From the NCBI GenBank assembly GCA_903866255.1, contig CAIPMW010000084.1, forward strand, positions 1 to 64,000: DNA of 64,000 bases, given 5' to 3'. Positions 1-16,345 of this stretch are shown in pieces. Position 1 is the first letter of the stretch, and the number at the start of each line of letters is the position of its first letter. The notes under the pieces are model-generated. The model saw only the letters and a program-made list of their open reading frames with translations, was not told where the DNA came from and searched no databases. The translations under genes and the position numbers were made by a program. This stretch comes from an uncultured Chlorobiaceae bacterium (GTDB lineage: Bacteria; Bacteroidota; Chlorobiia; Chlorobiales; Chlorobiaceae).

Positions 1-2
1 AG

Positions 3-122
3 ACACTTACCAAGGTGACCTATACTGGCAAGTATGGACACATTCTCACCGAGCTTACCAAAGCACAAAGAGAGATTCTCAAGGAGCTCAAAATTGAGCT
101 GCCGGACATGGCATCGTCATAA
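3..122 (+). CDS. C-terminal end of a probable transposase (partial)
   Basis: An open frame enters from the left edge and stops with TAA at 120-122, giving 39 residues. The tail contains LTELTKAQREILKELKIELP, which resembles the C-terminal ends of DDE transposases of the IS1634/IS4 type, where a short LTxxQ..L..L helix closes the protein. No terminal inverted repeat is visible in the following 35 bases, and the catalytic part lies outside the window. The assignment rests on this short stretch only; any other protein with an amphipathic C-terminal helix is possible. Confidence 0.35.
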   Translation, partial: TLTKVTYTGKYGHILTELTKAQREILKELKIELPDMASS

Positions 123-157
123 TTTGCTCGGGAAATTAGGTTGTAAAGCCCATAATC

Positions 158-1093
158 ATGACAAACACCAGCACACTCTACGGCGATCTTTCGGGTGTTG
201 AATTTCGCTCACTCTTTTCAAACGGCAAGATGGATGGATGTCTTGTTACACAACCCAATACCCTGACCACCCCTTATGGCTCCCTTGTGCCACAATACGA
301 AGCAGAGGATATGGGACGACGCACTGTCAAGCCGATCTACTTTTACAAGGATGGTTCGCTCAAATCCATTGCGCTGCAGTCGCAAACCATGCTTGATACA
401 CCGGTTGGCTCTGTGCCTGCCGAACTGGTCACCTTCCATAAAAGCGGATCCATCAAACGGGTATTTCCCCTTGATGGTAAACTCAGTGGCTTCTGGGGCT
501 GGAAAAACGAGTTTGCCCTTGCTACCGAACTCACCTTCCAGTCGCCTCTTGGAACAATGAGCGCCAAGGTGATTGGCCTTCAGTTTTATGAAAGCGGTGC
601 GCTGAAAAGCATAACATTGTGGCCTGGCCAGACACTTACCATACCGACACCAATGGGTGAAATTTCAATACGCAAAGGGTTGGCATTCTATGAGTCCGGT
701 GCCATAAGATCATTTGAGCCTCTTACAAAAATTGATATCCAGACCCCTTTAGGCACCATAACCTCTTACGATAACGAACCGAATGGCATTCACGGCGACA
801 TCAACTCTGTCCAGCTTTCGGAAGATGGCTCCATCGAAGCGCTCAGTACCGTCGACCATGCTGTGGAGGTATCATTATCAGGGGCGAATAGTGAGCTTTT
901 CCGTCCGGGAGTTAAAAATAACGTCTGTGGCGATGAGCGCAAGGTGAGCGTCCCGATGAAGGTACGCTTCGACAAAAGAGTGGTAATGTTTCACGATAAC
1001 CCGAAGTTCTCTTTCGACATGGAGCATTACCGGTTTGCCGTGATGAAAATGGATAAGACAACAAAAGAACCGCTCTACTCCTGCGCAGAGTAG
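158..1093 (+). CDS. Repeat protein of unknown function (MORN-variant-like)
   Basis: A 311-residue protein with no signal peptide or membrane segment. Two short motifs alternate along it: a turn of the form FYxSGxLKS (FYKDGSLKSIAL, FHKSGSIKRVFPL, FYESGALKSITL, FYESGAIRSF and a weaker LSEDGSIEAL), and a TPxGxx motif (TTPYGSL, DTPVGSV, QSPLGTM, PTPMGEI, QTPLGTI). The first resembles the YYxNGxLK turn of MORN-variant (YwqK-type) repeats, which stack as beta hairpins. The C-terminal 70 residues lack the repeat. The gene lies just after a transposase-like tail, and its last 19 bases overlap the end of the convergent flavoprotein gene. The function is unknown; the beta-repeat fold is an inference from periodicity. 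Confidence 0.75.
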   Translation: MTNTSTLYGDLSGVEFRSLFSNGKMDGCLVTQPNTLTTPYGSLVPQYEAEDMGRRTVKPIYFYKDGSLKSIALQSQTMLDTPVGSVPAELVTFHKSGSIKRVFPLDGKLSGFWGWKNEFALATELTFQSPLGTMSAKVIGLQFYESGALKSITLWPGQTLTIPTPMGEISIRKGLAFYESGAIRSFEPLTKIDIQTPLGTITSYDNEPNGIHGDINSVQLSEDGSIEALSTVDHAVEVSLSGANSELFRPGVKNNVCGDERKVSVPMKVRFDKRVVMFHDNPKFSFDMEHYRFAVMKMDKTTKEPLYSCAE

Positions 1094-2436
1094 AGCGCAT
1101 GACTACCAGCCAGCCAGCCGGTGGAAAATGCTGCCTGCAAGTTAAAGCCGCCAATTTCACCGGCGTAGTCGAGGAGTTCACCGCAGAGAAAGAGTCCTGG
1201 CACAATCCTCGATTCCATACTTTTGGGGTTTACCTCGCTGAGCGCCACCCCACCTGCGGATACTTCACCCTGATCAAGAGGCACTTCCCGAACACGCCCA
1301 AGCGGAAATCCTTTGAGCACAGCAAGCAGTGACTGCCTTTTCTCTCTGGCAAGAGTGCTCCAGGTGACATCTGGCTCAAGGGCAGCTTCCCGCATGAGAA
1401 ATGGAACAAGAGCTGTCGGAATGGTGCCATAAGCAGCCAGAGCAAAACCGCCGTGCAGAGGTGCCATGGGGCAACTCTGCAAAAACTTTCGTACCATCTG
1501 GGCACCGTTTTTGCGCCCATGCCGCAGAAGGTGCTCCTCAAGCTCAGCCACCCCATGCTCCGGAAAGAGATCAGCAAAAAGCAGAGCGCTGCCAAACCGG
1601 GAACAAAGCTCGGCAATATCACGCGACAGTGAGAGTACCGCAGGGCCACTATAGCCTCTGTGGGTGAAAAGAATATCCCCCCGACGGTCAACACGATTTC
1701 CCTCGGCAACTGCTGCAAATCCTGCTGAGCGGAGGGAGAGACCTGAAAGGGGGGCTGGAGGAGCCTTTACGGTGTACACCGGAGACAACGCTGCCGAAGA
1801 GTCTTTGAGTGAGTGACCAAAGGAACGAGCAATCGCCAGACCATCACCTGTTGTGCCAGTTCGGGAGTACGAAACACCACCGGTAGCAAGAATAACAACA
1901 TCTGCGGTGAAAGATGCCTCATCTGTTGTAACATAAAACAGCTTCCCCTTTCGCTCAACACGCCGAACCCGTCCGGAAAAGAGCTGCTGCACCGACGAAG
2001 CTCGCAACAGTGCTTCAAAAGCAACAGCAACTGAGGAAGCATCACCACTCAAGGGAAAAATCTTTCCGTCGGCCCTTTCAAGAGTCTCAACTCCTTGTGA
2101 GAGAAGCAGGGTAAGAAGATCGCTGTTTGAAAAAACATAAAGAGCGTGACGCAGAAACCTCCGTTCATTCAACCGAAAAAACCCTTTTTCAAGGAGTTCC
2201 GACGGCGTACCCCGATGAGTCACATTGCATTTCCCGCCACCGGAAATTCTGATTTTCGTGCCAGGACGAGCATTCCGCTCCAGCAGGGTTATTGAGCAAC
2301 TCCTACCTGAACACGCTGCACTTCGTCCGGCAGCGATGGCCGCCGACATGCCTGCCGCACCCGCACCAACGACAAGAATAGTCCTGTACTGCACCCTGGT
2401 GTTCATCCCACCCTCAGCATAGTAGACTGTGCTCAT
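1075..2436 (-). CDS. HI0933/YhiN (BaiN-like) family FAD-dependent oxidoreductase
   Basis: A 453-residue flavoprotein. The dinucleotide-binding motif VVGAGAAGMSAAIAAG is near residue 23, followed by the family hallmark RISGGGKCNVTH. The C-terminal GEVSAGGVALSEV and GLFLCGELLDYAGEIGGFN motifs are typical of the HI0933 family, which is cytosolic, binds FAD and mostly has no known substrate. Two starts are plausible: ATG at 2436 (AGGAAAAA upstream) and ATG at 2406 (GAGGGTGGG directly upstream), the second giving a cleaner N-terminus at MNTRVQYR. It is the last gene of a run prc - methyltransferase - flavoprotein with gaps of 24 and 15 bases, so it is probably co-transcribed. The family assignment is firm; the reaction is not known. 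Confidence 0.9.
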   Translation of the reverse strand: MSTVYYAEGGMNTRVQYRTILVVGAGAAGMSAAIAAGRSAACSGRSCSITLLERNARPGTKIRISGGGKCNVTHRGTPSELLEKGFFRLNERRFLRHALYVFSNSDLLTLLLSQGVETLERADGKIFPLSGDASSVAVAFEALLRASSVQQLFSGRVRRVERKGKLFYVTTDEASFTADVVILATGGVSYSRTGTTGDGLAIARSFGHSLKDSSAALSPVYTVKAPPAPLSGLSLRSAGFAAVAEGNRVDRRGDILFTHRGYSGPAVLSLSRDIAELCSRFGSALLFADLFPEHGVAELEEHLLRHGRKNGAQMVRKFLQSCPMAPLHGGFALAAYGTIPTALVPFLMREAALEPDVTWSTLAREKRQSLLAVLKGFPLGRVREVPLDQGEVSAGGVALSEVNPKSMESRIVPGLFLCGELLDYAGEIGGFNLQAAFSTGWLAGSHALYSAQE

Positions 2437-2451
2437 TTTTTCCTGGAGAGT

Positions 2452-2970
2452 TCAGGAATAGACCCAGACAGAGGCTGGAGGAATATTTTTCACCACAAAC
2501 CTTTTGCGCGCCTTACTCTGAAAATTAACCTCCCCAAGCGGATCATTGAAGCCGTAGGTGTACATGACACACCATTGCAGAAGACCTCTGCTGTAAAGGG
2601 ATTCAATAATGGGAATAAATGATGTTTTGAATGGATTGTTGATAAGCGGAATTGACAGCACAAGCCCAAACCGCTCGTGAACCCGCTCCAACTGCTCAAG
2701 CGCACAACCATTAATCGTGGTCAAATGCGGATAATTCTGGCGGAGAAGAGCACAAAATTCCTTGTCAATTTCCACCAACAGAGGGTTAAGGCTTGAGATA
2801 TGCTTGGTTATTGCGCCGGTTCCTGCTCCGATCTCAATAATATTGACTTTATCAAGCTCTTTAATTGAAGTAAACATCGCCTTGGCCAGAAACTCCGAAG
2901 AGGGTATGACGGAACCGATACTTTGAGGGTCTTGTAAATATTTTTTTAAAAAAAGAATCTTTTTACGCAT
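2452..2970 (-). CDS. Phospholipid N-methyltransferase-like SAM methyltransferase
   Basis: A 172-residue protein. The SAM-binding motif IIEIGAGTGAITKHI is near residues 44-58, followed by the acidic strand VEIDKEF. The N-terminal LKKYLQDPQSIGSVIPSSEFLAKAM matches the opening of bacterial PmtA/KsgA-like methyltransferases that modify phosphatidylethanolamine or are annotated as rRNA-adenine-methylase-like. No membrane segment is seen. It lies 24 bases after prc and 15 bases before the flavoprotein gene on the same strand, so the three probably share a transcript. At about 170 residues it is slightly shorter than characterised PmtA enzymes. The substrate is inferred from family only; the methyltransferase fold is well supported. 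Confidence 0.8.
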   Translation of the reverse strand: MRKKILFLKKYLQDPQSIGSVIPSSEFLAKAMFTSIKELDKVNIIEIGAGTGAITKHISSLNPLLVEIDKEFCALLRQNYPHLTTINGCALEQLERVHERFGLVLSIPLINNPFKTSFIPIIESLYSRGLLQWCVMYTYGFNDPLGEVNFQSKARKRFVVKNIPPASVWVYS

Positions 2971-2994
2971 CTACTTGTCTGAATAATTAAGTTT

Positions 2995-5061
2995 TTAGTT
3001 CAACGAGGGCAACAGTCTGGTGATCGTTTGCCGTTGTACCGTTTTGATCTCTGCCAGATCAGAAACAACTGCAGCCGTCTGGTGGAGAAGTACGTCTTTG
3101 TTAATATTTTTTGTGGAGTCCTGATCTTGCACCCACAACCCCTCAATCTTTTTTATTGTCTCCATTTCAGATTTGAAGGAGGAGTCCTGAAGCAATACCA
3201 CTTTCTTCTTGCGAATCTGGTTAAGGGTATTCAGATCAGCAAGATAGGATTGGTATTGCCGATTCTTTGACGATCTTTCCTGCTGTTTCTGGCGAAGCAG
3301 GGCAATATCTTCTGGACTCACCTCGGCCGTGGGGCGATAAAACGACCGGGATATGGTGCTCCATGGAAGACTGCTGGTATAGGTATCCTCACCGACTGCA
3401 GAGGTGTCAATCATTGAGGGCATGACAATATCCGGCATCACCCCTTTATGTTGGGTACTTCCGCCAGAAATCCGGTAAAACTTGGCAATAGTAAGCTTCA
3501 ACTGACCAAACTCCGGTTTTTTCCCAAAAAAAGAAAACGGTCTGTCAAGTTTAATAATACTTTGAACAGTCCCTTTGCCAAACGTTCTCTCCCCCATGAT
3601 CACCCCACGTCCAAAATCCTGGATTGCCGCTGCAAAAATTTCAGAGGCTGATGCACTGTACCGATTGACGAGCACAGCAAGGGGACCACTGTACAGTACC
3701 TGCCGATCCTCGTCTCTCAGTACCACTTTACCACCTGATGCATCGCTTATCTGTACAACCGGACCTGATGAAATAAAAAGTCCGGTGACATTAACCGCCT
3801 CTTCAAGCGATCCCCCACCATTGTCGCGAAGATCAATAACAATACCATCAACACGGTCAGCATTCAGTTCGTTCAGAATCCTGGTAACGTCCCGAGTGGT
3901 ACTGGTATAATTACCCGTATTCTGCTGTTGCCCCTCAAAATCAAGATAAAATGAGGGAATGGTGATAACACCAATTTTCTGACCATTCTGCTGGATAATA
4001 CTTTTCTTCGCTGCCTGCTCCTCAAGATCAATTTTTTCGCGCTGAAGCTGAACTATTTTTGCCGGCCCCCTGCCACTCTGGCTGGCAGGATAAATTTTAA
4101 GGCGAACAATAGTGCCCTTCTTGCCACGAATAAGTTTTACCACATCATTGATCCTTAGCCCTGAAACATCAACCATTTCAGTAGTTTTGCCCTGACCAAC
4201 AGCGATTATTTTATCCCCTTTCTTCAGCAAGCTACTCTTGAAGGCAGGACCTCCGGGAATAATCTCATTAACCACAGTGAACTCACCTTCCGTCTGAAGT
4301 TTGGCGCCAATTCCCTCAAGCGAACGACTCATATCGATCTGAAAGTTTTGAAACTCCGCAGGAGAAAAATAACTGGTGTGAGGATCAAACGATGTGGTCA
4401 AGGCATAAGTATATGCCTGAAAAGCATCATCCGATTTCTGTCGATTCAGAAGATTCAGCCTGTTCGTGAAGCTTTTCGCAAGCGATTCCCTTATCGTTTT
4501 CCTCTTTTCTCCAGAATATTTGAGATTCAGCCATTGGTATTTCAGCTCTTTTCTCCAGAGATCACTGAGCTGATGCCTGTCTGCAGGCCAGGGATCGGAC
4601 TTGCGATCAAGATCAAGAACCTCTTGCGTTGCAAAATTAAACTGCACAGTATCGACGGTCGCTTTCATAAAGCGCATTTTTTCCTTTGCCCGTTTCAAAA
4701 AGAAGTTGTAAATGGCAAAACCGGACGTTGATTTACCTGCCAGAAACTCATCATCAAGACGATTTCCATAAATTTTGCGAAGACTTTCCACCTCACTGGC
4801 TACAAAATAGCTTTTGGTAGCATCAAGATTGTCGATGTAGCGATTAAGTATCTGCTGGGAAAGTGAGTCATTCACCGATATCTTTCTGTAGTGGTTCTGC
4901 CGGAGCGACTGAGTTATGTACTTCCCCGCTTCCTCCTGAAGTGCCGTTGGCACAAGCGTTACCACTGCCTCCGGTTGAGAAGATTTTTCTGCGTTTTTGG
5001 CATACACCAAAACAGTGCTGCCCATGAGCACGACAATGAAAAGCAGACTTTTTATATACAT
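2995..5061 (-). CDS. prc: Carboxy-terminal processing protease Prc/Tsp (S41A)
   Basis: A 688-residue periplasmic protease. A signal peptide (hydrophobic run residues 5-20, cleavage near VYA) is followed by an N-terminal helical domain, a PDZ domain at about 245-330 (SLEGIGAKLQ through KKGDKIIAVG) and the S41 core. Ser471 (in NRYSASASE), Asp482 and Lys496 (TFGKGTVQ) have the same spacing as the Ser/Asp/Lys set of E. coli Tsp. The C-terminal 130 residues, with a charged helix, correspond to the Tsp C-terminal domain. Tsp-type proteases trim or degrade periplasmic proteins from their C-terminus. The gene is transcribed away from fba across a 146-base divergent region and heads a three-gene run. 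Confidence 0.95.
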   Translation of the reverse strand: MYIKSLLFIVVLMGSTVLVYAKNAEKSSQPEAVVTLVPTALQEEAGKYITQSLRQNHYRKISVNDSLSQQILNRYIDNLDATKSYFVASEVESLRKIYGNRLDDEFLAGKSTSGFAIYNFFLKRAKEKMRFMKATVDTVQFNFATQEVLDLDRKSDPWPADRHQLSDLWRKELKYQWLNLKYSGEKRKTIRESLAKSFTNRLNLLNRQKSDDAFQAYTYALTTSFDPHTSYFSPAEFQNFQIDMSRSLEGIGAKLQTEGEFTVVNEIIPGGPAFKSSLLKKGDKIIAVGQGKTTEMVDVSGLRINDVVKLIRGKKGTIVRLKIYPASQSGRGPAKIVQLQREKIDLEEQAAKKSIIQQNGQKIGVITIPSFYLDFEGQQQNTGNYTSTTRDVTRILNELNADRVDGIVIDLRDNGGGSLEEAVNVTGLFISSGPVVQISDASGGKVVLRDEDRQVLYSGPLAVLVNRYSASASEIFAAAIQDFGRGVIMGERTFGKGTVQSIIKLDRPFSFFGKKPEFGQLKLTIAKFYRISGGSTQHKGVMPDIVMPSMIDTSAVGEDTYTSSLPWSTISRSFYRPTAEVSPEDIALLRQKQQERSSKNRQYQSYLADLNTLNQIRKKKVVLLQDSSFKSEMETIKKIEGLWVQDQDSTKNINKDVLLHQTAAVVSDLAEIKTVQRQTITRLLPSLN

Positions 5062-5207
5062 AGGAGGTTTTAAACGCTGATATTGAACGCTGTTCTTGAA
5101 CGAGAAAACAAATAATACTATATTTGGCGGATAGATGATAATTCAAAAGGTGTCTGGTATTCCTGAAAAATCAGGTCGAATAATAACAATAAACGGAGAG
5201 CTTTTCA

Positions 5208-6182
5208 ATGCCAAAGAAAAAAATCGATTATAAAGAACTCGGCCTTGTCAACAGCCGCGAACTTTTCAGTAAAGCTGTCTCGGGGGGTTATGCTATTCCT
5301 GCTTACAATTTCAATAATCTTGAGCAGATGCAGGCAATCGTACAAGCTTGTGTTGAGACCAAATCTCCCGTTATTCTCCAGGTTTCAAAAGGAGCAAGAA
5401 GCTATGCCAACGAAACCCTGCTCCGCTTTCTTGCCCAGGGCGCTGTTGCTTACGCCGCTGAACTCGGTTCACCAATCCCGATTGTCCTTCACCTTGACCA
5501 CGGCGACAGTTTCGAACTCTGTGTCGACTGCATTGAGTCTGGCTTCTCCTCAGTGATGATCGATGGTTCTCATCTCCCTTACGAAGAGAACATTGCTCTG
5601 ACCAAAAAAGTTGTAGAGTATGCCCACCAATTTGATGTCACCGTTGAGGGAGAGCTCGGTGTGCTTGCCGGGATTGAAGATGAAGTTTCTGCCGCCCACC
5701 ACACCTACACACAGCCTGAAGAGGTTGAGGATTTTGTCGCTAAAACAGGTGTCGACAGCCTTGCCATCTCCATTGGCACCTCGCATGGTGCCTTCAAGTT
5801 CAAACCCGGCGAAGATCCAAAAATCCGCCTTGATATTCTGACCGAAATTGAAAAGCGCATCCCCGGATTTCCTATTGTGCTGCACGGCTCATCTTCCGTA
5901 CCCCAAGAGCTGGTAAAGATGATCAATGAACATGGTGGAAAATTGAAAGATGCTATAGGAATCAGTGAAGATCAGCTTCGTCTTGCCGCCAAGTCTGCTG
6001 TTTGTAAAATCAATATTGATTCCGATGGTCGCCTCGCAATGACCGCCGCAATCCGCAAAGTCTTTGACGACAAACCTGAAGAGTTTGATCCAAGAAAATA
6101 TCTTGGTCCAGCCCGTGATGCTCTGAAAAAGCTCTATGCCCACAAGATCATCAACGTGCTCGGATCTGACGGGAAGGCATGA
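5208..6182 (+). CDS. fba: Class II fructose-bisphosphate aldolase
   Basis: A 324-residue zinc-dependent aldolase that interconverts fructose 1,6-bisphosphate with dihydroxyacetone phosphate and glyceraldehyde 3-phosphate in glycolysis and gluconeogenesis. Visible landmarks are HLDHGD (His98, zinc ligand), VEGELG at 146-151, GTSHGAFK (His193) and VLHGSSS (His226), the expected metal and phosphate-binding residues. The ATG is preceded by CGGAGAG eight bases upstream, which supports the start. The gene stands alone, diverging from prc and convergent with the tpsA gene. A hairpin at 6189-6214 follows seven bases after the stop. Confidence 0.96.
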   Translation: MPKKKIDYKELGLVNSRELFSKAVSGGYAIPAYNFNNLEQMQAIVQACVETKSPVILQVSKGARSYANETLLRFLAQGAVAYAAELGSPIPIVLHLDHGDSFELCVDCIESGFSSVMIDGSHLPYEENIALTKKVVEYAHQFDVTVEGELGVLAGIEDEVSAAHHTYTQPEEVEDFVAKTGVDSLAISIGTSHGAFKFKPGEDPKIRLDILTEIEKRIPGFPIVLHGSSSVPQELVKMINEHGGKLKDAIGISEDQLRLAAKSAVCKINIDSDGRLAMTAAIRKVFDDKPEEFDPRKYLGPARDALKKLYAHKIINVLGSDGKA

Positions 6183-6347: not shown

Positions 6348-9300
6348 TTAGCTCTTTTTATACATGGAGAACAGATATATGGTTAAATACCCCAACGTTC
6401 CAAAGGTACCAAAGGCGATGGGGTCAGGAGGCGCATCGCTTCTATTCGTTTTCTTTGTTTTCTTTGAAACGCCATTGCGCGGCTGTCTCCCAGAGACCGG
6501 AGTTCCACTTGAGAATGAAACTTTATCGGGGCTGGAAACGACTTCCGCAATGCTGCTTTCGGTGAAACTTGTGCCTGTAGTAAGGCTGTTCGCCGCAAAA
6601 CTTCCAGCCGCAATGGCATTATCCATTACCTGATCGGGCGGTCTGAAATTGAGTCCTGAGCCTGACATCGCACCTTGCAAACCAGGTTTCGCTGATCCGG
6701 CAGCCATTCTCGCTCTGTTGGCTGCGGCATTTAAACCTGCTTTACTACCAGTACCAGAAGGGGTACCCGCAGTTGTTGCTGTGCTTGCAGGGCTGCCCTC
6801 TCCTGCTGCTGCAGTTGTTGTCGAACTGCTGGCCGCCGGGCTCTCTCCCGATCCTGCCGTTGAGGTGGTGGCCGAGCTGCTCTCGGCGGCTCCTGTTGTT
6901 GCTGTTGTCGAACTGCTCTCTCCGTTGACAGTACCGGCACTGGTTTGGGGGGCGCTGGAATTAGCTGCACCATCAGGAGCACTTTGTTTTATTGCCGTCA
7001 CCTCCAGTGGAACTGTCACTGCAAGTGGAACTGTCGTAGCCGCCATTGGGAGAGGCTTGATTATCACAGGAACGTTACTGCTGTTCAGTGCAGGCAATTG
7101 GTAATTGCTCGCCAGGCCTGAACCATCAGCAAGTGTGATTGTACTGATGAATGTATTCACTGTGGCAGCATTGGCATCAGTCGCCTGCGCATTCGTGTAT
7201 GTCAAGGTCTCACTGCCAACACCGGTCACAATGGTCACCGCACCCTCCAGACTTGTTGTGCCATCATAATTTTTTTTTGCTGATAGCGTTACCACCTTCG
7301 GGGTAATAATCACAGGAGCGGTGGCAACGCTCAGCTTCGGAAGTTGGTAGTTGCTTGCCACACCACCATGAGTTCCATCAGCAAGCGTTATCGTGCTGAT
7401 GAATTTGTTCGCTGTGGCAACATTGGCATCACTCGCAGCGGCATGGCTGTAACTCAGGGTCTCACTACCAACGCCAGTCTCAATCGTCACCGCACCGGTC
7501 AACTCTTTTGTGCTGTCATAGGTTTTATTTGCCGAGAGCGTCACTGTTTTCGGGGATATAGTCACAGGCGCAGCAACACTGCCCAGCACAGGCAACTGGT
7601 AGTTGCCTGCCTGTCCTGAACCATCAGCAAGCGTTATTGAACTGATGAATTTGTTCGCTGTGGCAACATTGGCATCGCTTGCAAAAGCATTGGTGTAAGT
7701 TAGCGTCTCACTGCCAACCCCAGTCACAACCGTCACCGCACCGGCCAGACCCGTTGTGCCATCATAGGACTTACTTGCTGAGAGCCTCACCGTCTTTGGG
7801 GTAATCGAAAAAACATTATTGTCGCTGGTGAAGGTAATCAAATAGTTGCTCGCCTTACTGCCATTGCCGAGAGCAATATCATAGGTTCCAACAGTTGATC
7901 CTGCCTGGCGGCTCAACATGCCGGTTACATCACTCAACGCATCATTTACTGTCGCACTGCCCAGCGTCCCGCTACTCACGCTCACCGATAATGATGGATC
8001 TGCTGCTCCGTATACCTTGCTGCCTGCTGTCGCGCTCAGGGTTATCGGACGCGCATTGACCGTCAGGTTCGATGCCATATAGTTGATACTATAGTTGCTG
8101 TTGCCGACCGTACCCAAATTTATGGCGTAAGGGCCACCCTGAACTGTTTCGCCCGATGCACGACTCAAGCTGCCGGTAAAGAGGTCACCACTCACCAGAC
8201 CTCGCCCTGAACCCGGAGGTTCTATCGTGCAGGTCAACACGGGATCCAAATCACCGTACGTCTTGACCTTCGGTTCTGCTGTGATGGTTATCGGACGCTG
8301 GCTGACCGTAAGCTCTTTTGAAATTGAAATATTATCAGTAAAGCCATACCCAAGGCTGCTTGCAAGTCCGCTGCTATAGGTTACATCATAACTTCCTGCT
8401 GAGTAAAGAGTTGCTGGTGTATTTCCATTTATCAACCACGTTGCCGTTCCAGTAACTGTTGTTCCCGAAAAAGTGTCGCCGTTTTTATAACCAGTCACCA
8501 TCGTCGGTGTAAAGGTCGGAGTTACGTCTCCGTAGGTGATCGTCTGACTTTCAGCCTTGACTTCCAGCGATGGCTGCTCGCGATAAACTGCGTTCAGACC
8601 GGCGGTGAGAGAAGAGGTGTAATGAGTCGATGTTGCCGTGCTGCTGTAACGAAATCGTCCGGAACCCGGGCTCAGTCCGCTTAATGAAGTCAAATTGGTG
8701 CTGCCGCTGACGGTTCCGGTATAGAGTGTCGCAAAGCCGCCTTCTCCCGTAGTGATGGTCGGTGCCGGATTGCTGATGACAATATTCCCCCCCGTCGAAT
8801 TTATTCTTATAGCGCTGCTGGTGGTATTCGTATTGGTGATGTTTCCGGATATGGATATGTCACCGGCTGCAGTCAGCGTGATTGTATTTGCACCTCCTGT
8901 CAATGCACCATTGACGGTGATAGAGCCACCGCTGATCAATGAGAAATTATCCCTGAGTGTGATATTGCCACCGATGGTTACATTACCTGCTGTGGCATTG
9001 CCGAGGGTAATATCGGAAAATCCGCGAGCGAAATTGGACGAAAAATAGCCTGAGGGCAATGCCAATGTTCCACTCCCTCCTGCAAGACCAATCGTCATAC
9101 CTGAAGTTGCAGGAGTTATGGCAAGCGATCCGGCGCTGGACAGGGTAGCTGTACCAGAGAGTGTAAGTGTATTGGCTGAGATTGTAATGGCACCGCCTGA
9201 AGAGCTGAAAACCGATTTGGTATCGGCAAGGGTTATGGCATCTCCCGTCAGCGAAACCGCTCCGGTTTGAGTTCCGGCACTCTGGTTGATTGACAGAAGA

Positions 9301-11582
9301 CCACCGGCATTAAAAGTTAATTGTGCGCCGGTTGTGGACATTGCCTTGTCAATAATTACGGATCCACCTGTCCCGCCAGCCTGCAGAATGATTGAACTTG
9401 TAAATGATCTCGGCGTTTCTGGCAATAACCCACCAAAAGTTACCTTTCCGGTACCATCCGCACTTCCAAAAGTGACGGAGGAGAACCCTGTGATTTGAGA
9501 AAGTGCAGTATCAATGTTCCCGCCTGTACCGATAGTCATGTTACTGGAAACGCTGTACGGCTTCAGCGTGATCTGCTGGGTGCCGTTTCCTGTTACATTA
9601 CCGGTAAACAAAAAGTCGCTGGCCTGAAGAATGATGTTAGAACTGGCTGCCGGAGTTATTGGACTGCCGAACGTCAACAGTCCGTTACAGGAGATCGACG
9701 GGCTGCCGCTGAGAGTTAGCGGCTGATCGAAGACAAGACCTGCACCGGTGGCAGTGATGGCACTGGCAATGGTATAAGCTCCAGTACCTGCTTCGGTGAC
9801 AAACGAAACAGAGCCACTGTTCAACGTAATCGGCGACGTAACGCTGATATAGTTATAAACAGCAGTACTGGTTCCCGAGATTTTAAGCGCAAGATTGCCC
9901 GAACCTGTTATGGAGATTGGACCATTTACAGTAAATCTATCTTTAACTCTCAGGGTAATATCACCTGTAGCAGTTACCCCTTCTGGCGTAATATAAATAT
10001 GATCTTTATTTTCATAGAGATTTATCGAACCAACAACATTTGCTGTGAAATCATCAAAATCACTGATATCACGAGGATCAGCGATATCACCTTTATAATC
10101 AAGATTAAAGTCACCTGTTCCGTATAATTCGAGCAAACCGTAAGCCTCAATTTTCGCATGAGATTGAACTCCTCCGGTACTTGTGATTTTCAGTTTTCCG
10201 CCACCAAGTGAAATAGGGCTGTTGATGGTAACAGCCTTGTTGACAGCACCATTTGTGCCGCTTTGAAGTACAAGCTGCCCGGAACCCCCGGTACCCGAAA
10301 TACCGGCATTGATTGTCACCGCGCCATCAGCCAGAAGTGAAAGAGTTTGAAAGGATATATTGACGGGGCTGTTGACCAGAATATCCCCATTTCCGTCAGT
10401 TGAAGGATCCGTGGCAATAGTGACGTTTGTGGTTGATAAACTATTGGAAAGTGTCGTGGCTCCGATGCCGTTGACAGTCTGTGCTCCTGAGCCTGCGCTG
10501 ACCGTGAAATCAACCGGGTCAATAAGCCATGTGCCTGCATTACCAAAGGGCGCCAGAGTGGTGATTGTGGCTCCATCGAAAACGGTGAGTTCTCTACCGG
10601 AGGTTTCAATAAAACCGCCATTGCCTCCGTAAGGAGCTGAAGCATCAAGAGTGCCATTGACAGTTGTCTTACCAGTATCCATATCGGAGACAAGCATGAT
10701 GCGCCCACCCTTTTTCTGGATGGTGCGGGCCTCAATGACACCGGTATTGCTGGCAGTTGCCATCCGCAGGGCATCGGCGGCTTTTGCGGTCATCACAACC
10801 ACTCCACCATCGGCCTTGATAAGCCCCTTGTTCTCCACAAGGGCATCTACAGCTCCCCGATCGACTGTGTAGCTGATGAGCCCGTCACCTTTGAAGTCGA
10901 GCGAAACCTGGTCCGCAGCGGCAAAGAGAGCATTGCCGCTGTTGGCTGTAATGCTCCCCGCATTCGTGACCCTGGGAGCCATGAGGGCAACCACTCCACC
11001 GTCAGCGATAGCGATTATTCCCTGATTGAGGATGGAACCTGCACTTCCCTCGTTTGTGAACCTGTATTTCGCAGCAAGAAAGTCACTGTCGAACATGTTG
11101 AGCGACGAGGCGACAAGCCCGCCAACATTAACCGTTGCTGTTTTGCCGAAAATAATTCCGGCCTGATTGAGCAAAAACACCTGACCGTTGGCCGAAAGCG
11201 AACCCATGATCTGCGAAGGATTCTGGTCGTTGATTCGGTTCAGTGATGCGGCGACACTGTTGGGCTGATTGAAATGGACTGATGCATTTTCTCCAATATT
11301 GAAACTCTGCCAGTTGGCGATCATTTTCTGGCTGAACTGGTTCACCGTCATCCGGGTACCAGTAGTGGCAATAGTGGCAATGCCTGCGGTTATCTGGCCT
11401 CCAACTGGAAGAGAAGCAGGATCTAGAGCATAAACTGGCCCTCCAGAGGCAAACATCGAAGCAAGAACAGCCAGGCACCGTAGCGGCGATGAGGGAACCT
11501 TTCCGTTACCCGTTACCTTTTCTGAAACAACAATCCACCTCTCCTTTGTGTTGGACCAGATGAAGTTGAATAGCCTGTTCAT
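6348..11582 (-). CDS. Two-partner secretion exoprotein (filamentous-haemagglutinin-like, TpsA)
   Basis: A protein of about 1744 residues. The start is placed at ATG 11582 because it begins an extended signal peptide: MNRLFNFIWSNTKERW then VVSEKV, followed by a hydrophobic core ending at GPVYA. The frame stays open upstream to 11654, but those codons overlap the tpsB stop and would spoil the signal. Residues about 55-300 form the TPS secretion domain (NQFSQKMIANWQSFNIG, NPSQIMGSL, NQAGIIFG, NVGGLVAS). A long Gly/Ser/Thr beta-helix-like region follows, then three MBG-type domains (TYGD, KTYGDLDP, KVYGAADP) and three YDG repeats. A Ser/Thr/Ala-rich linker and a hydrophobic tail ending MYKKS close the protein. 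The partner transporter tpsB lies 68 bases upstream. It is probably surface-exposed or released; an adhesin role is inferred. Confidence 0.9.
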   Translation of the reverse strand: MNRLFNFIWSNTKERWIVVSEKVTGNGKVPSSPLRCLAVLASMFASGGPVYALDPASLPVGGQITAGIATIATTGTRMTVNQFSQKMIANWQSFNIGENASVHFNQPNSVAASLNRINDQNPSQIMGSLSANGQVFLLNQAGIIFGKTATVNVGGLVASSLNMFDSDFLAAKYRFTNEGSAGSILNQGIIAIADGGVVALMAPRVTNAGSITANSGNALFAAADQVSLDFKGDGLISYTVDRGAVDALVENKGLIKADGGVVVMTAKAADALRMATASNTGVIEARTIQKKGGRIMLVSDMDTGKTTVNGTLDASAPYGGNGGFIETSGRELTVFDGATITTLAPFGNAGTWLIDPVDFTVSAGSGAQTVNGIGATTLSNSLSTTNVTIATDPSTDGNGDILVNSPVNISFQTLSLLADGAVTINAGISGTGGSGQLVLQSGTNGAVNKAVTINSPISLGGGKLKITSTGGVQSHAKIEAYGLLELYGTGDFNLDYKGDIADPRDISDFDDFTANVVGSINLYENKDHIYITPEGVTATGDITLRVKDRFTVNGPISITGSGNLALKISGTSTAVYNYISVTSPITLNSGSVSFVTEAGTGAYTIASAITATGAGLVFDQPLTLSGSPSISCNGLLTFGSPITPAASSNIILQASDFLFTGNVTGNGTQQITLKPYSVSSNMTIGTGGNIDTALSQITGFSSVTFGSADGTGKVTFGGLLPETPRSFTSSIILQAGGTGGSVIIDKAMSTTGAQLTFNAGGLLSINQSAGTQTGAVSLTGDAITLADTKSVFSSSGGAITISANTLTLSGTATLSSAGSLAITPATSGMTIGLAGGSGTLALPSGYFSSNFARGFSDITLGNATAGNVTIGGNITLRDNFSLISGGSITVNGALTGGANTITLTAAGDISISGNITNTNTTSSAIRINSTGGNIVISNPAPTITTGEGGFATLYTGTVSGSTNLTSLSGLSPGSGRFRYSSTATSTHYTSSLTAGLNAVYREQPSLEVKAESQTITYGDVTPTFTPTMVTGYKNGDTFSGTTVTGTATWLINGNTPATLYSAGSYDVTYSSGLASSLGYGFTDNISISKELTVSQRPITITAEPKVKTYGDLDPVLTCTIEPPGSGRGLVSGDLFTGSLSRASGETVQGGPYAINLGTVGNSNYSINYMASNLTVNARPITLSATAGSKVYGAADPSLSVSVSSGTLGSATVNDALSDVTGMLSRQAGSTVGTYDIALGNGSKASNYLITFTSDNNVFSITPKTVRLSASKSYDGTTGLAGAVTVVTGVGSETLTYTNAFASDANVATANKFISSITLADGSGQAGNYQLPVLGSVAAPVTISPKTVTLSANKTYDSTKELTGAVTIETGVGSETLSYSHAAASDANVATANKFISTITLADGTHGGVASNYQLPKLSVATAPVIITPKVVTLSAKKNYDGTTSLEGAVTIVTGVGSETLTYTNAQATDANAATVNTFISTITLADGSGLASNYQLPALNSSNVPVIIKPLPMAATTVPLAVTVPLEVTAIKQSAPDGAANSSAPQTSAGTVNGESSSTTATTGAAESSSATTSTAGSGESPAASSSTTTAAAGEGSPASTATTAGTPSGTGSKAGLNAAANRARMAAGSAKPGLQGAMSGSGLNFRPPDQVMDNAIAAGSFAANSLTTGTSFTESSIAEVVSSPDKVSFSSGTPVSGRQPRNGVSKKTKKTNRSDAPPDPIAFGTFGTLGYLTIYLFSMYKKS
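7072..7800 (-). repeat. Three tandem YDG-domain repeats inside tpsA
   Basis: Three consecutive units with periods of 246 and 252 bases; the plus-strand landmark GGTAGTTG or GGTAATTG begins at 7100, 7346 and 7598. Each unit encodes a YDGTT or YDSTK start, VxTGVGSETLTYTN, a DANxATxNxFIS segment and ITLADG..NYQLP. The near-identity at the nucleotide level makes this stretch a likely site of copy-number change by recombination. Confidence 0.85.
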
Positions 11583-11650
11583 AGAGCGAATTCTTGAAAT
11601 ATGGAAAAAAGCAGATACCATATTGAGGCTCCTGCATGACCCGTCATGCT

Positions 11651-13414
11651 TCAAAAAGTGAACATGGCCTGCAGCCAGAAGCGATTACGGTCACTCCTGC
11701 CATCCGAGTTTTTGCCGTAAGCGTCTCGTCCGGGGTTGTCGCCAATCACATAAGCCCAGCTTGCACGCAGAGATCCCCCACCCGCCAGGCTGCTTATCAA
11801 CCCAATCCCGCCACCCTGCAGCCAGTAATCATTGCGGCCAGTCGCATTAGAAACGTCGCCCACATATCGCTCATGATTAAGCGTGATATGACCTGCATCA
11901 TAAAATGCGCCGAGCTGGACGCTGCCCCATTTGGCGGGAAAAGGGAGCATGTAGCGAAGATCGGCACTAAAAAGCTGCCCATCGTCACCAGATGCCTCGC
12001 TGACCGGGTAGGCCCGAATACTGCCGGGGCCACCAAGCGACATCTTTTCACTGGAACTCAGATTGCTGGTTGCTGCCTGGGTTGTAGCCGAGATATTGAT
12101 GCTGACCTGTTCGGAGAGACGCTGGAATCGCGCAAGAGCGAAGTTAAAGCGGCTATACCCTCCCTCCGTGCCGGTGAGGGTTATGTCGGCAATGGATTCA
12201 TGAAGAGTTCCGATGGTGGCAGCAAGCGTGTATGTTGTGTAACCGCCGCCGAAAAACTGGTCGTACCGGTCACCACTGACACTGAACGTGGCGTTGCTGA
12301 GCTGCTTGTCAGAGATATTGATATCGGAACTGCTGTCGGTTAGCGACCTGTATCCACAGGAGAGGCTTGTCGTCATGTTGGTGGTACGGCTGCGGAGAAG
12401 CGGGTAGCTCAAGCCAGCATCAATGCTGCTGCTCTCTCCTTTCATTTGCAGAGAGGCCAACTCCCCTCCAAGTTCATAGCGCATGCCAGTGTAAGCAAGG
12501 TTTGCCCTGATGCCATTGAACATGAGGGGAACACTGTAACCGATTCGACCCTGTACAAGAGCTGAAGATTCGGTCAGCAACAGGTTAAGCTGGTCTCCAT
12601 AACGGAGCGGGTCGTTGACAGAGAGCGTAGCATTGCCTCGGCATACGCCAGTATAAAAGCTGCCCTGATTGTCGCCCCACACAGCCCCTGAAAAAATTGA
12701 TCCTTCAGCAACAGCTATCTCAACTCCACTGGTACCAGATTCTGTTCCGGAAACAAGAGAGGCTCTCGCGCTAATCCCCGGCAGATCATTCATAAGCAGG
12801 AGTGAGCGCTCAAGCTGGTGCTCGTTGACAGGCTCACCTTTTTTAACGGCCGGACTACCAATATTTATAAGAGTTTTGTCGGCGATCCTCACACTGTTGT
12901 CTCGCTTGATAACAATGCGACCATCACTCTTGACCAGTGTGACCGCGATATGGATGATGCCTGGAGTAATATCCTGAGACGGAACCCAGGCTCTTGCCTG
13001 ATAGAAACCCTTTTCTTTAAAAAGCGCCGTAATGTTATCGGCAAGAAGCTGCAACTCTCTGAACGAAAGGGTTTTGCCTACTGCGGAAGCAACTCTTTCC
13101 CTGAGTTGTGCTTCGGTTGCTACGCCCTCGTAACCACTGAAGATAAAACCTTTGATCTCAACCCGGAGACCTTCATCAACTGTAGCAAGGACTCTCTGTT
13201 TTTCTTCAGGAAGTGGCAGTTGCCGCAACTGCTCCGGAACGGGCTTTTGATCTCGAAGAATGCTGCCAGCATCTGGAACGGTCTGCGCATGAAGCGAAGA
13301 GGCAGAAAGCAGACACAAAATTGCAAGCAGTCTCGACACTCGTGTTACTATTTTCACCAACAACCTGCCTTCACGCTTTATGAGAAACTGACGTACTTCA
13401 TAAGAACTGTACAT
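11651..13414 (-). CDS. Two-partner secretion outer-membrane transporter (ShlB/FhaC family, TpsB)
   Basis: An outer-membrane pore that exports the adjacent TpsA exoprotein. The frame from 13414 gives 587 residues, but a GTG at 13357 preceded by GAAGG is a better start: it leads directly into VKIVTRVSRLLAILCLL and a cleavage site at SLHA. After the signal come POTRA-type repeats (residues about 75-230, with LRERVASAVGKTLSF and KEKGFYQARAWVPSQDI) and then a long beta-barrel with alternating aromatic strands. The barrel contains FSADLRYMLPFP and ends RFWLQAMFTF, with the terminal Phe typical of outer-membrane proteins. It lies 68 bases before the chosen tpsA start and is probably co-transcribed with it. 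Confidence 0.93.
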   Translation of the reverse strand: MYSSYEVRQFLIKREGRLLVKIVTRVSRLLAILCLLSASSLHAQTVPDAGSILRDQKPVPEQLRQLPLPEEKQRVLATVDEGLRVEIKGFIFSGYEGVATEAQLRERVASAVGKTLSFRELQLLADNITALFKEKGFYQARAWVPSQDITPGIIHIAVTLVKSDGRIVIKRDNSVRIADKTLINIGSPAVKKGEPVNEHQLERSLLLMNDLPGISARASLVSGTESGTSGVEIAVAEGSIFSGAVWGDNQGSFYTGVCRGNATLSVNDPLRYGDQLNLLLTESSALVQGRIGYSVPLMFNGIRANLAYTGMRYELGGELASLQMKGESSSIDAGLSYPLLRSRTTNMTTSLSCGYRSLTDSSSDINISDKQLSNATFSVSGDRYDQFFGGGYTTYTLAATIGTLHESIADITLTGTEGGYSRFNFALARFQRLSEQVSINISATTQAATSNLSSSEKMSLGGPGSIRAYPVSEASGDDGQLFSADLRYMLPFPAKWGSVQLGAFYDAGHITLNHERYVGDVSNATGRNDYWLQGGGIGLISSLAGGGSLRASWAYVIGDNPGRDAYGKNSDGRSDRNRFWLQAMFTF

Positions 13415-13545: not shown

Positions 13546-14094
13546 TCAATGCTCTTTATGTTCTTCTCTCAAGTAAGTCACCCACAGCGCTCCGGCAACA
13601 AGAATAATTCCAATACACAGATATAAAAGATCTAAAGGGGTCGCGTAGTTTGTGGATAAGGATTTTTCTAAAAAAGTAACAATCAGGATCATAAGAATAA
13701 CTTTACCGATATTACCTTTGAGATCGTCAAGAGTTTGAATATTCAACCAGTTTGGTCGAGAATCTGCCGTTCGACTTGCCGGATCGATTTTGCTGATGAA
13801 TAATTCATAAAGACCCATACTGAAAATGAGCAGCACTGTTGCAAAAAGGTAATTATCAACCGAGTTAATCAATAACGGAACAATTCGGTCAACATGATGT
13901 AGCTCGGGAGCTTGACCAAGTCTGTTTAATTGTTCAAGAAATAAATATCCCCCATCAGCAATCAAAAGTGTTCCTTTGACGAACATAATAACGGAGGACA
14001 CAAGAGAACCAACAACCGCAATCATCACAATAAATCGAAAATTAAACAGTGTATATTCAAACACACGCTCGATCATACCTCTTATCTGTTTCAC
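13546..14094 (-). CDS. UPF0114/YqhA family membrane protein
   Basis: A 182-residue inner-membrane protein with four hydrophobic segments: about 17-41 (FRFIVMIAVVGSLVSSVIMF), 80-97 (NYLFATVLLIFSMGLYEL), 128-145 (GKVILMILIVTFLEKSL) and 153-173. Lengths and features such as SVDNYLFATVLLIFSMGLYEL, FISKID and LKGNIGKVI match the UPF0114 (YqhA) family, whose function is unknown. It lies 82 bases downstream of the Cache/channel gene on the same strand and may be co-transcribed with it. Confidence 0.85.
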   Translation of the reverse strand: MKQIRGMIERVFEYTLFNFRFIVMIAVVGSLVSSVIMFVKGTLLIADGGYLFLEQLNRLGQAPELHHVDRIVPLLINSVDNYLFATVLLIFSMGLYELFISKIDPASRTADSRPNWLNIQTLDDLKGNIGKVILMILIVTFLEKSLSTNYATPLDLLYLCIGIILVAGALWVTYLREEHKEH

Positions 14095-14176: not shown

Positions 14177-16345
14177 TCAATAAAAGCTGACCAGGGTAAG
14201 AATATAAAAAATGCCGGTATATAATGGCCAGTACAGATACCTGTAAAAAATGCCATGCCTGTAAGTAAAAAAATATCCGCTCTTCTTGGTAATGGCAACT
14301 ACAAAAAACACATTAATCAGCATTGCGAAATAAATCATGAAATAGATTTTTTCGATATAGAGAATACCCTGAGGTATTACCTGTATCCTGACACTCTGTA
14401 TTGTTACCACCAGGAACATCGTAAAGGCGGTTCCAATAGCTGTTGCCTCTTTGGCATCAAAGCTGAATGATTCTGCATCGTCTTCGTGAGTGATCATATA
14501 GACACCGGAAAACAGTATTACCATAATGATGAATATTGGAATCATCATGGAAATAAAGCTGTTGAGCCAGCCACGCTCAATAGTGATATTCAAACTAAGA
14601 TCTTTGACGACCGGTCGCTCCAAAAGCGTGCGTCGTCCATAATCAATATTATCTGGTTGTTCTGAAAAATTAAAATAGGTACTATTGACATTCCATCCGG
14701 AAATAGCAAATCCATCCGCCACCATAGGTTTGGCTATCGGGGAGGTAATTTTATACGATGCGATATCAGGAACAAAAATAATGGATTCGAACTTTTTGGG
14801 TTGACACATCCTGATTTTAATATTGTACCTGTCAAAAGGGTAAAGCGAACTCTTTAAATCCTGCTGGAGTCGAGTACAGAAATTCCATCCAATAACCAGA
14901 AAGCCATTTTCTTCCATTCGGTAACTTTCGTACATCTTGGTTTCAATCTGATCAGGAAACAGTATACCCCCAACTTGCTTTGCATCCATACCTGCAGGAA
15001 TCCTTTGCCACATCGTCCCATACACCTCGGCCATCTCATTTGGCTCTGAAACAGAAAGAGAATTGACTGTAATACCCGTCTGGATAAATTGTGGTGGCAA
15101 AGACTGAGTGCGCATGGCCTTGTCTGTCTGCTCTTTCTTGTACTGCTCAATTTGAGTAAATGTCGTAATACATTTATCTTCATAAGGAGACGTTGCGCCT
15201 CTTGTAATCTGGAGCGCCCATATACAGATCAGACCCGCCAGAAATATAAGACTGGCTACCCATGAATATCGCTTGAGCTGCTTGAGGAAAACGTCAGATG
15301 ATAAAGACAACAGGATAAAGTAGAGCCCTGAAAGAAGCAGGAAAACAATAAATGCTGTCAGCAACAACATCATTTGCTGTTTCAGAAATCCATCCGACAC
15401 AGTCAGTTCATCGACAAGCAGCGCGAGGCCCACAAACCATCCTGTTGATGTGACGGGTTCAAACCGGAATATGGATTTCTGACCGGTAATGATGCTTTTT
15501 TCAAAGATGCTGACACCAGCTTTAGCCTTAAATGCGTTCAGCAGGTTTTTGCTGTTGCCTGCCTCATAAGTATTTTTCGCATAATCCAGCAATTTGAAAT
15601 TGTTGACAACAAGATTTTTGTCAGGATGATCCAGCACCACTCCAGCGCCATCAACAATGAAACGATAGCCATACTGCCCCAAATTCTGATAGCCAAGCGA
15701 TTTCTGAAAATCATCAATTGAGGTGCTCGCCGAAACAGCTCCAATAAGTTTTTTTTCGCCTGAATTCGTGGTAGTATAAAGCCGCTGTTGATACTTCAGC
15801 ATAACAGCCTTGTCGCTTTTATTCCAGGCTGCCTTTTGCCACCCATCCTTCATGTCGACCAGCTCCGCAGGCGGTAATCCACCACGAGCATCGGACTTGC
15901 CGGAAACCCTCATATCCACGATACCATGAATACGGGTTCTACCAGAGACAGACAGTCTTTGGGATACTGATGAGGAGTCGGCATCAGATAAAAAGCTTAT
16001 CGAATACCGCAATGGAACACTGGAGCGCTTTTCAGAGAGAATGCCAATCAGGTTATTCTCATTAAACTCCTTCTCGCTGGCTGCAAGAGTGATATCCCTG
16101 ACCGTTCGCTCAATATTTCTGGCCATATTGTCGATTTTATGGGAATCAGCAGCAGCGGCCTTAATTGCTCTGGTGTTTATATCATCATTGCTTGAATAAA
16201 ACAGAAAAGCGAGATTGACAGAAAAAAAGAGCAGCACAGCAAAGGCAAGAGCTGTCAGCAATAACACGAGTACCTTCACCCTGTGATAGAGAGCACTGTC
16301 TTTCTTCAGTAAAGGCTTCCATTGTTCTAGCTGATCTAATGGCAT
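14177..16345 (-). CDS. Cache sensor fused to a Cys-loop-receptor-like (pentameric ligand-gated) channel
   Basis: A 722-residue membrane protein. TM1 is at 24-50. An extracytoplasmic region at 55-320 has Cache-like features: ADSHKIDNMARNIERTVRD, LIGAVSASTSIDDFQ, GYRFIVDGAGVVLDHPDK and TGWFVGLALL. Two TMs follow at 325-348 and 361-381, then a second extracytoplasmic domain of about 210 residues ending in LSLNITIERGW. Four TMs close the protein at about 595-618, 633-655, 661-686 and 700-721. The second half matches the pentameric ligand-gated channel plan: LYPFDRYNI at 501-509 stands where the Cys-loop FPFD motif lies, IERGW..FISMMIP leads into M1, and IPQGILYIEKIYF forms the M2-M3 loop. Ligand and ion selectivity cannot be told. 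Cache fusions to bacterial channels are known (DeCLIC), but the two extra TMs between domains are unusual. Confidence 0.75.
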   Translation of the reverse strand: MPLDQLEQWKPLLKKDSALYHRVKVLVLLLTALAFAVLLFFSVNLAFLFYSSNDDINTRAIKAAAADSHKIDNMARNIERTVRDITLAASEKEFNENNLIGILSEKRSSVPLRYSISFLSDADSSSVSQRLSVSGRTRIHGIVDMRVSGKSDARGGLPPAELVDMKDGWQKAAWNKSDKAVMLKYQQRLYTTTNSGEKKLIGAVSASTSIDDFQKSLGYQNLGQYGYRFIVDGAGVVLDHPDKNLVVNNFKLLDYAKNTYEAGNSKNLLNAFKAKAGVSIFEKSIITGQKSIFRFEPVTSTGWFVGLALLVDELTVSDGFLKQQMMLLLTAFIVFLLLSGLYFILLSLSSDVFLKQLKRYSWVASLIFLAGLICIWALQITRGATSPYEDKCITTFTQIEQYKKEQTDKAMRTQSLPPQFIQTGITVNSLSVSEPNEMAEVYGTMWQRIPAGMDAKQVGGILFPDQIETKMYESYRMEENGFLVIGWNFCTRLQQDLKSSLYPFDRYNIKIRMCQPKKFESIIFVPDIASYKITSPIAKPMVADGFAISGWNVNSTYFNFSEQPDNIDYGRRTLLERPVVKDLSLNITIERGWLNSFISMMIPIFIIMVILFSGVYMITHEDDAESFSFDAKEATAIGTAFTMFLVVTIQSVRIQVIPQGILYIEKIYFMIYFAMLINVFFVVAITKKSGYFFTYRHGIFYRYLYWPLYTGIFYILTLVSFY

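Follow-up and report, generated by a model that had tools for sequence, protein, structure and literature searches.

What kind of protein is encoded at positions 14177 to 16345 (minus strand) of the window, and how might the sensor at one end of it act on the channel at the other? The window, the whole 64,000-nucleotide stretch of DNA analyzed here, comes from an uncultured Chlorobiaceae bacterium. The original prediction described at this position a Cache sensor, two intervening transmembrane (TM) helices, and the plan of a pentameric ligand-gated ion channel (pLGIC), and hhalign comparisons, hidden Markov models (HMMs), and AlphaFold2 (AF2) folds bear out this fusion of dCache, TM, TM, and pLGIC. 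ORF calling and translation confirmed a real open reading frame of 722 amino acids. Full-length relatives without internal stops are present in 12 other genomes of the same genus (38 to 81% identity), and we therefore regard the channel ORF as a maintained gene, of which the source genome carries one copy. Contigs in public databases assign this genus to Chlorobium/Chlorobiaceae. A weak second match, in G201, proved to be a histidine kinase frame. Plasmid searches for relatives returned just those from Vibrio and Acaryochloris plus one Azospirillum MCP, and viral contigs searched for relatives of the 722-amino-acid protein yielded none.

To place the C-terminal half, we compared it with established channels. 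Searches of Pfam, NCBIfam, and the PDB with the protein or its 12-member family returned weak Cache matches and no channel domain, and a PDB sequence search with the family profile gave no match. As a reference, we took 12 prokaryotic pLGICs recognized by Pfam PF02931 and aligned 11 of them (A3); this set is sound, since it matched GLIC in the PDB at an E value of 1e-67. An hhalign comparison of A3 with 16 C-terminal modules of the family (A4) gave a probability of 98.5% and an E value of 3.2e-15, in register from the extracellular domain (ECD) through M3, with YPFD aligned to FPFD and the pre-M1 arginines of the two sets aligned to each other. The pLGIC HMM made from A3 matched the window protein at an E value of 4.4e-6 (with search size set to 100,000), along with most family members. 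In reverse, the family HMM matched stand-alone pLGICs with E values up to 8.8e-14 and PBP-fused pLGICs up to 1.6e-14, while reversed sequences gave no match with either HMM. The profile search proposed in the original prediction thus fails with Pfam alone but succeeds with the custom HMM and hhalign, and the missing Pfam and PDB channel match was a limit of sensitivity, not evidence against a pLGIC. PF02931 likewise misses the PBP-fused relatives L101, L117, and L119, and inventories built on Pfam overlook an entire clade of prokaryotic pLGICs. L117 (positions 1 to 3459, minus strand) is a cyanobacterial protein of 1,153 amino acids in which a pLGIC module missed by Pfam lies between a PBP-I domain at the N terminus and an SBP_bac_1 domain at the C terminus; the same contig has another matching ORF of similar length.

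Structure prediction was based on alignments of just 25 to 27 sequences. The full-length AF2 model (25 sequences) has a pLDDT of 75, mostly 77 to 94 in the ECD and low, at 40 to 55, in the channel TM domain, which reaches about 55 to 70 in a module-only model. A Foldseek search of the PDB with the full-length model placed GLIC first (E value, 9.6e-10; probability, 1.00), pLGICs occupied the leading places, and VIA-align superimposed GLIC on approximately residues 414 to 722 with a Z score of about 15. With the module-only model, Foldseek matched GLIC at an E value of 4.0e-13 and VIA-align at a Z score of 16.1 over module residues 27 to 338, nearly the whole module; GluCl, GlyR, and DeCLIC scored just behind. 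Sequence and predicted fold together identify the C-terminal half as a pLGIC. Its beta-rich ECD sandwich is modeled at residues 419 to 591 (positions 14573 to 15091; this and all other features of the protein lie on the minus strand), where Foldseek, VIA-align, and hhalign all support it. The TM domain follows at residues 593 to 721 (positions 14183 to 14569), with helices M1 (593 to 620), M2 (631 to 654), M3 (663 to 685), and M4 (706 to 721), the four-helix end that had been predicted; the pLGIC HMM extends through M3 and the GLIC superposition covers the full module. In addition to this full-length homology, the protein has the superfamily's Pro-loop proline and acidic residue, the basic residue before M1, and, in the M2 register inferred from hhalign, small residues at 2' and 6' and a hydrophobic one at 9'.

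The short motifs pointed out originally are all present, LYPFDRYNI with YPFD at residues 502 to 505, IERGW at 589 to 593, and IPQGILYIEKIYF from residue 657. In an alignment of 37 family channel modules, the Pro-loop residue P503 is invariant (37/37), D505 is shared by 31, and the pre-M1 arginine R591 by 36. The loop itself (residues 495 to 509, positions 14819 to 14863) is Cys-less: the two cysteines, 13 residues apart, that frame the loop in Cys-loop receptors are replaced at the canonical positions (P503-8 and P503+6) by Q495 and I509, a polar and a hydrophobic residue as reported for prokaryotes (PMC4795631). The cysteines at 490 and 514 are not the classical pair, in line with the earlier description. 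They occur in 3 and 1 of the 37 modules, respectively, and are common only to the closest relatives of the window protein; we rejected the idea that they form a displaced Cys-loop for want of conservation.

In the N-terminal half, hydropathy places the first TM segment at about residues 25 to 43, followed by two more at 327 to 345 and 363 to 381 and by those of the channel at 597 to 615, 634 to 652, and 667 to 685. AF2 models helices at 17 to 90, 318 to 345, and 350 to 382. TM1 (residues 20 to 45, positions 16211 to 16288) is the start of the first of these, which continues into the N-terminal helix of the Cache domain. We identify residues 44 to 318 (positions 15392 to 16216) as a dCache domain, in which tandem PAS-like subdomains follow a long N-terminal helix and fill the region between two TM segments. 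VIA-align matched the model to 3lib_H (Z score, 18.1; residues 53 to 318, 238 residues) and to TlpC (5wbf; Z score, 17.5). On the window protein, Pfam dCache_1 and dCache_2 are weak, below the cut-off (E value of about 0.01), and see only residues 195 to 314; dCache_1 is above the cut-off in the distant homologues L045, L048, and L088. Because the distal Cache pocket is degenerate in Chlorobium members, putative ligand binding by their Cache may be lost. Many genomes of the genus also carry ORFs of 655 to 677 amino acids with a Cache match, and one Chlorobium relative of the Cache part (L014, positions 946 to 2925) is a dCache-HAMP-SpoIIE phosphatase.

Between sensor and channel lie TM2 (residues 318 to 345, positions 15311 to 15394), a short, positively charged loop predicted to be cytoplasmic (residues 346 to 361, positions 15263 to 15310; three K+R and one D+E), TM3 (residues 362 to 382, positions 15200 to 15262), and a linker with the N-terminal helix of the ECD (residues 383 to 418, positions 15092 to 15199; AF2 helix at 396 to 412). 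The domain order shown by sequence and fold is dCache between TM1 and TM2, a TM2-TM3 hairpin, and an ECD with M1 to M4 and a Cys-less Pro-loop. Hydropathy finds two TM segments directly before the ECD in 36 of the 37 members surveyed, the exception being a plasmid copy from Acaryochloris that keeps one. The loop between them measures 4 to 21 residues, and its K+R count exceeds D+E in 32/36, consistent with a cytoplasmic turn. The three PBP-fused pLGICs, which the same profile retrieved, have no TM segment between PBP and ECD. In a maximum likelihood tree that also included 24 stand-alone and PBP-fused channels, the modules of all 37 hairpin-group proteins, counting the single-TM Acaryochloris copy, form one group separate from those channels (UFBoot/SH-aLRT, 100/100). 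The group spans Chlorobiota, Cyanobacteriota, Bacillota, Thermodesulfobacteriota, Bacteroidota, and one Vibrio. The architecture recurs beyond the source genome, both in the 12 same-genus genomes and in other phyla, and it is not a Chlorobiales curiosity.

We consider it probable that this gene encodes one subunit of a Pro-loop receptor channel, most likely a homopentamer, which carries a dCache module covalently on every subunit and is gated by relay. The pentamer, the putative Cache ligand, the ion, and the TM2-TM3 relay step are what we infer here. The complex would sit in the inner membrane, where a small periplasmic ligand would bind the Cache domain and shift its C-terminal helix, moving TM2. 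The tight hairpin would hand this movement to TM3, and TM3 with the linker-helix (383 to 418) would pull on the top of the channel ECD or let it go. The interface of ECD, Pro-loop, and pre-M1 arginine could then rotate M2 and open the gate at 9' (M643, a position where most relatives have Phe). On its way to the pore, the sensor signal would traverse the membrane twice, down TM2 and up TM3. The channel ECD may retain a ligand site of its own, which would make gating a two-input process. Cache receptors are commonly described as dimeric, a symmetry that does not match five subunits. We expect the output to be ion flux or membrane potential and not chemotaxis, since the source genome has no MCPsignal domain, a domain present in seven of the control genomes; the chemotaxis receptor role proposed in 2004 for bacterial pLGICs is for the same reason unlikely here.

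An alternative that we consider unlikely, though the strongest of those weighed, keeps the pLGIC fold but assigns gating chiefly to the channel's own ECD, or to protons, calcium, or lipids, with the Cache-hairpin part serving as an anchor or assembly module or persisting as a vestigial sensor. GLIC and ELIC function without accessory domains, and the degenerate distal pocket of the Chlorobium members fits this reading, as does the persistence of the channel in 10 of the 37 sampled members in which the Cache domain is shortened or absent. In five of the cyanobacterial members the Cache domain is shortened; five members from Cytophagales contain three TM segments and, in place of the Cache domain, only a loop of about 40 to 50 residues. 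With a tree that does not place the root of the hairpin group, loss of the Cache domain is the simplest reading of the Cache-less members. However, a useless Cache would be easily lost, yet most lineages retain it: dCache is kept in 26/37 members across several phyla, including the three homologues that Pfam recognizes. Because the Cache-less Cytophagales members retain the hairpin, this element has some role without a sensor.

The M2 helix (residues 631 to 659, positions 14369 to 14455) was numbered in the hhalign register, which gives E633 at -1', A636 at 2', A640 at 6', M643 at 9', V647 at 13', and R653 at 19'. This register, with P658 at 24', is preferred because it results in the usual small 6' and hydrophobic 9' residues; numbering with P658 at 23' was dropped, as it assigned the bulky F641 to 6' and, in cyanobacterial members, an Asp to 13'. 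With the preferred numbering, 9' is F, I, L, or M in all 37 modules and 19' is Arg in 35. We think it very unlikely that the pLGIC module is instead a signaling or scaffold pentamer whose pore is blocked by large hydrophobic residues. M2 is mostly hydrophobic, 9' is Phe in 29/37, and the M1-M2 linker is long in most members, as such a receptor might have it; against this, 6' is small (G, A, T, or S) in 37/37 and 2' is G, S, or A in 29/37, a hydrophobic gate at 9' is nothing unusual, and conducting members typically have charged rings at -1' and 19'. Phe is found at 9' in 13% of known pLGICs (PMC4795631), which also counts against a blocked pore. Ion selectivity probably varies across the family, because the -1' residue differs among members (E or D in 18/37, Gly in 11/37, and Arg in 4/37 in the same register); for the window subunit, E633 at -1' and the acidic M1-M2 linker weakly predict selectivity for cations. 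Finally, the idea that the C-terminal half belongs to an unrelated kind of membrane protein, with a beta-sandwich and motifs that resemble those of pLGICs by chance, is extremely improbable and refuted by both fold and homology, for although the family alone has no Pfam Neur_chan or PDB sequence match, the reciprocal HMM matches, the hhalign E value, the Foldseek probability, and the clean reversed controls all oppose it.

What appears to be new is the topology, a TM2-TM3 hairpin between sensor and ECD. We suggest only tentatively that the hairpin proteins form a separate class of pLGIC, with an obligate extra TM pair in each subunit as a built-in transducer, sensors that are interchangeable or absent, and a signal that would pass from the periplasm to the cytoplasmic side and back before gating; such subunits would have six TM segments without TM1 and seven with it. 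Bacterial Pro-loop channels are members of the superfamily that includes the animal neurotransmitter channels. The multi-phylum set, with its natural variants (full Cache, half Cache, Cache-less with hairpin, and single TM), makes it possible to test directly if a TM hairpin can relay a ligand signal to a pLGIC and how a Cache receptor module fits into a five-fold channel.

Downstream of the channel gene on the same strand, after a gap of 82 bp, lies a gene for a UPF0114/YqhA-type membrane protein (positions 13546 to 14094, minus strand), which is also near the channel in L034, L038, L040, and L041. It stands between the channel and a two-partner secretion (TPS) pair (positions 6348 to 13414, minus strand) consisting of a ShlB/FhaC-type transporter and a TPS/MBG_2 exoprotein of 1,768 amino acids. 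TPS genes also lie downstream of the channel in 7 of the 12 Chlorobiaceae loci compared (the transporter in six and the exoprotein in one; L033, L034, L036 to L039, and L041), a neighborhood that may be inherited synteny only. In Vibrio sp. THAF191d (L032, positions 1514 to 5762), the channel gene comes right after genes for an SBP_bac_3 solute-binding protein and an unknown protein of 207 amino acids, with ends touching; the solute-binding protein is a possible periplasmic partner of the Cache-pLGIC. Just upstream of four cyanobacterial channel genes is a gene for a DUF4231/SLATT_3-like 2TM protein (L045, positions 3870 to 4802; L046, 3782 to 4639; L047, 1559 to 2494; L051, 3742 to 4710), and in L044 (positions 3921 to 4697) a Bestrophin-like channel protein is encoded directly upstream of the Cache-pLGIC gene. 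Two tandem channel paralogues are found in the cyanobacterial L047, L048, L053, and L054 and may form heteropentamers.

Fusions of MCP-N and Cache domains to prokaryotic pLGICs were reported by Tasneem et al. in 2004 from Methanosarcina, Cytophaga, and Microbulbifer (PMC549065); DeCLIC, the example given in the original prediction, does not fit. Like the window protein, the 2004 fusions, scattered among prokaryotes, have a Cache-type sensor N-terminal to the pLGIC module; compared by text only, they are described as having a signal peptide, extra domains, a ligand-binding domain, and four TM segments, with no mention of an intervening TM pair (PMC549065). We found no description of the dCache-TM-TM-pLGIC architecture in the open-access literature. 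PF02931 matched none of 14 control genomes, M. acetivorans included; because of this, and because Cytophagales members with dCache (L088 and L089) fall within the hairpin clade, the 2004 proteins may belong to it too. If they carry the same hairpin, the window protein joins their group and the hairpin went unremarked in the 2004 text.

GLIC from Gloeobacter shares with the window module the fold of ECD and M1 to M4, the Cys-less Pro-loop, and an acidic residue at the inner end of M2, at about 15% identity, but has no N-terminal sensor or extra TM segments; most family members have a longer M1-M2 linker, and near 19' the family has Arg where GLIC has Glu. DeCLIC, matched by both Foldseek and VIA-align, is likewise a prokaryotic pLGIC with an accessory N-terminal domain and, as of 2022, the only such structure (PMC9897478). 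That domain consists of two jelly-roll lobes packed on the ECD with no intervening membrane segment (PMC9897478), whereas the window protein has dCache and two TM helices and thus falls outside the DeCLIC type. In the available parts of their survey, Upadhyay et al. state that extracellular Cache domains transmit signals solely via the C-terminal TM helix and do not name pLGICs among Cache outputs (PMC4822843). The dCache chemoreceptors and sensor kinases (mmHK1S-Z3 [3lib], TlpC, and PctA) hold the same dCache fold between TM1 and TM2, but there TM2 connects to an output in the cytoplasm (HAMP, MCP, or kinase), whereas TM2 of the window protein would turn around and, via TM3, reach a channel domain outside the cytoplasm.
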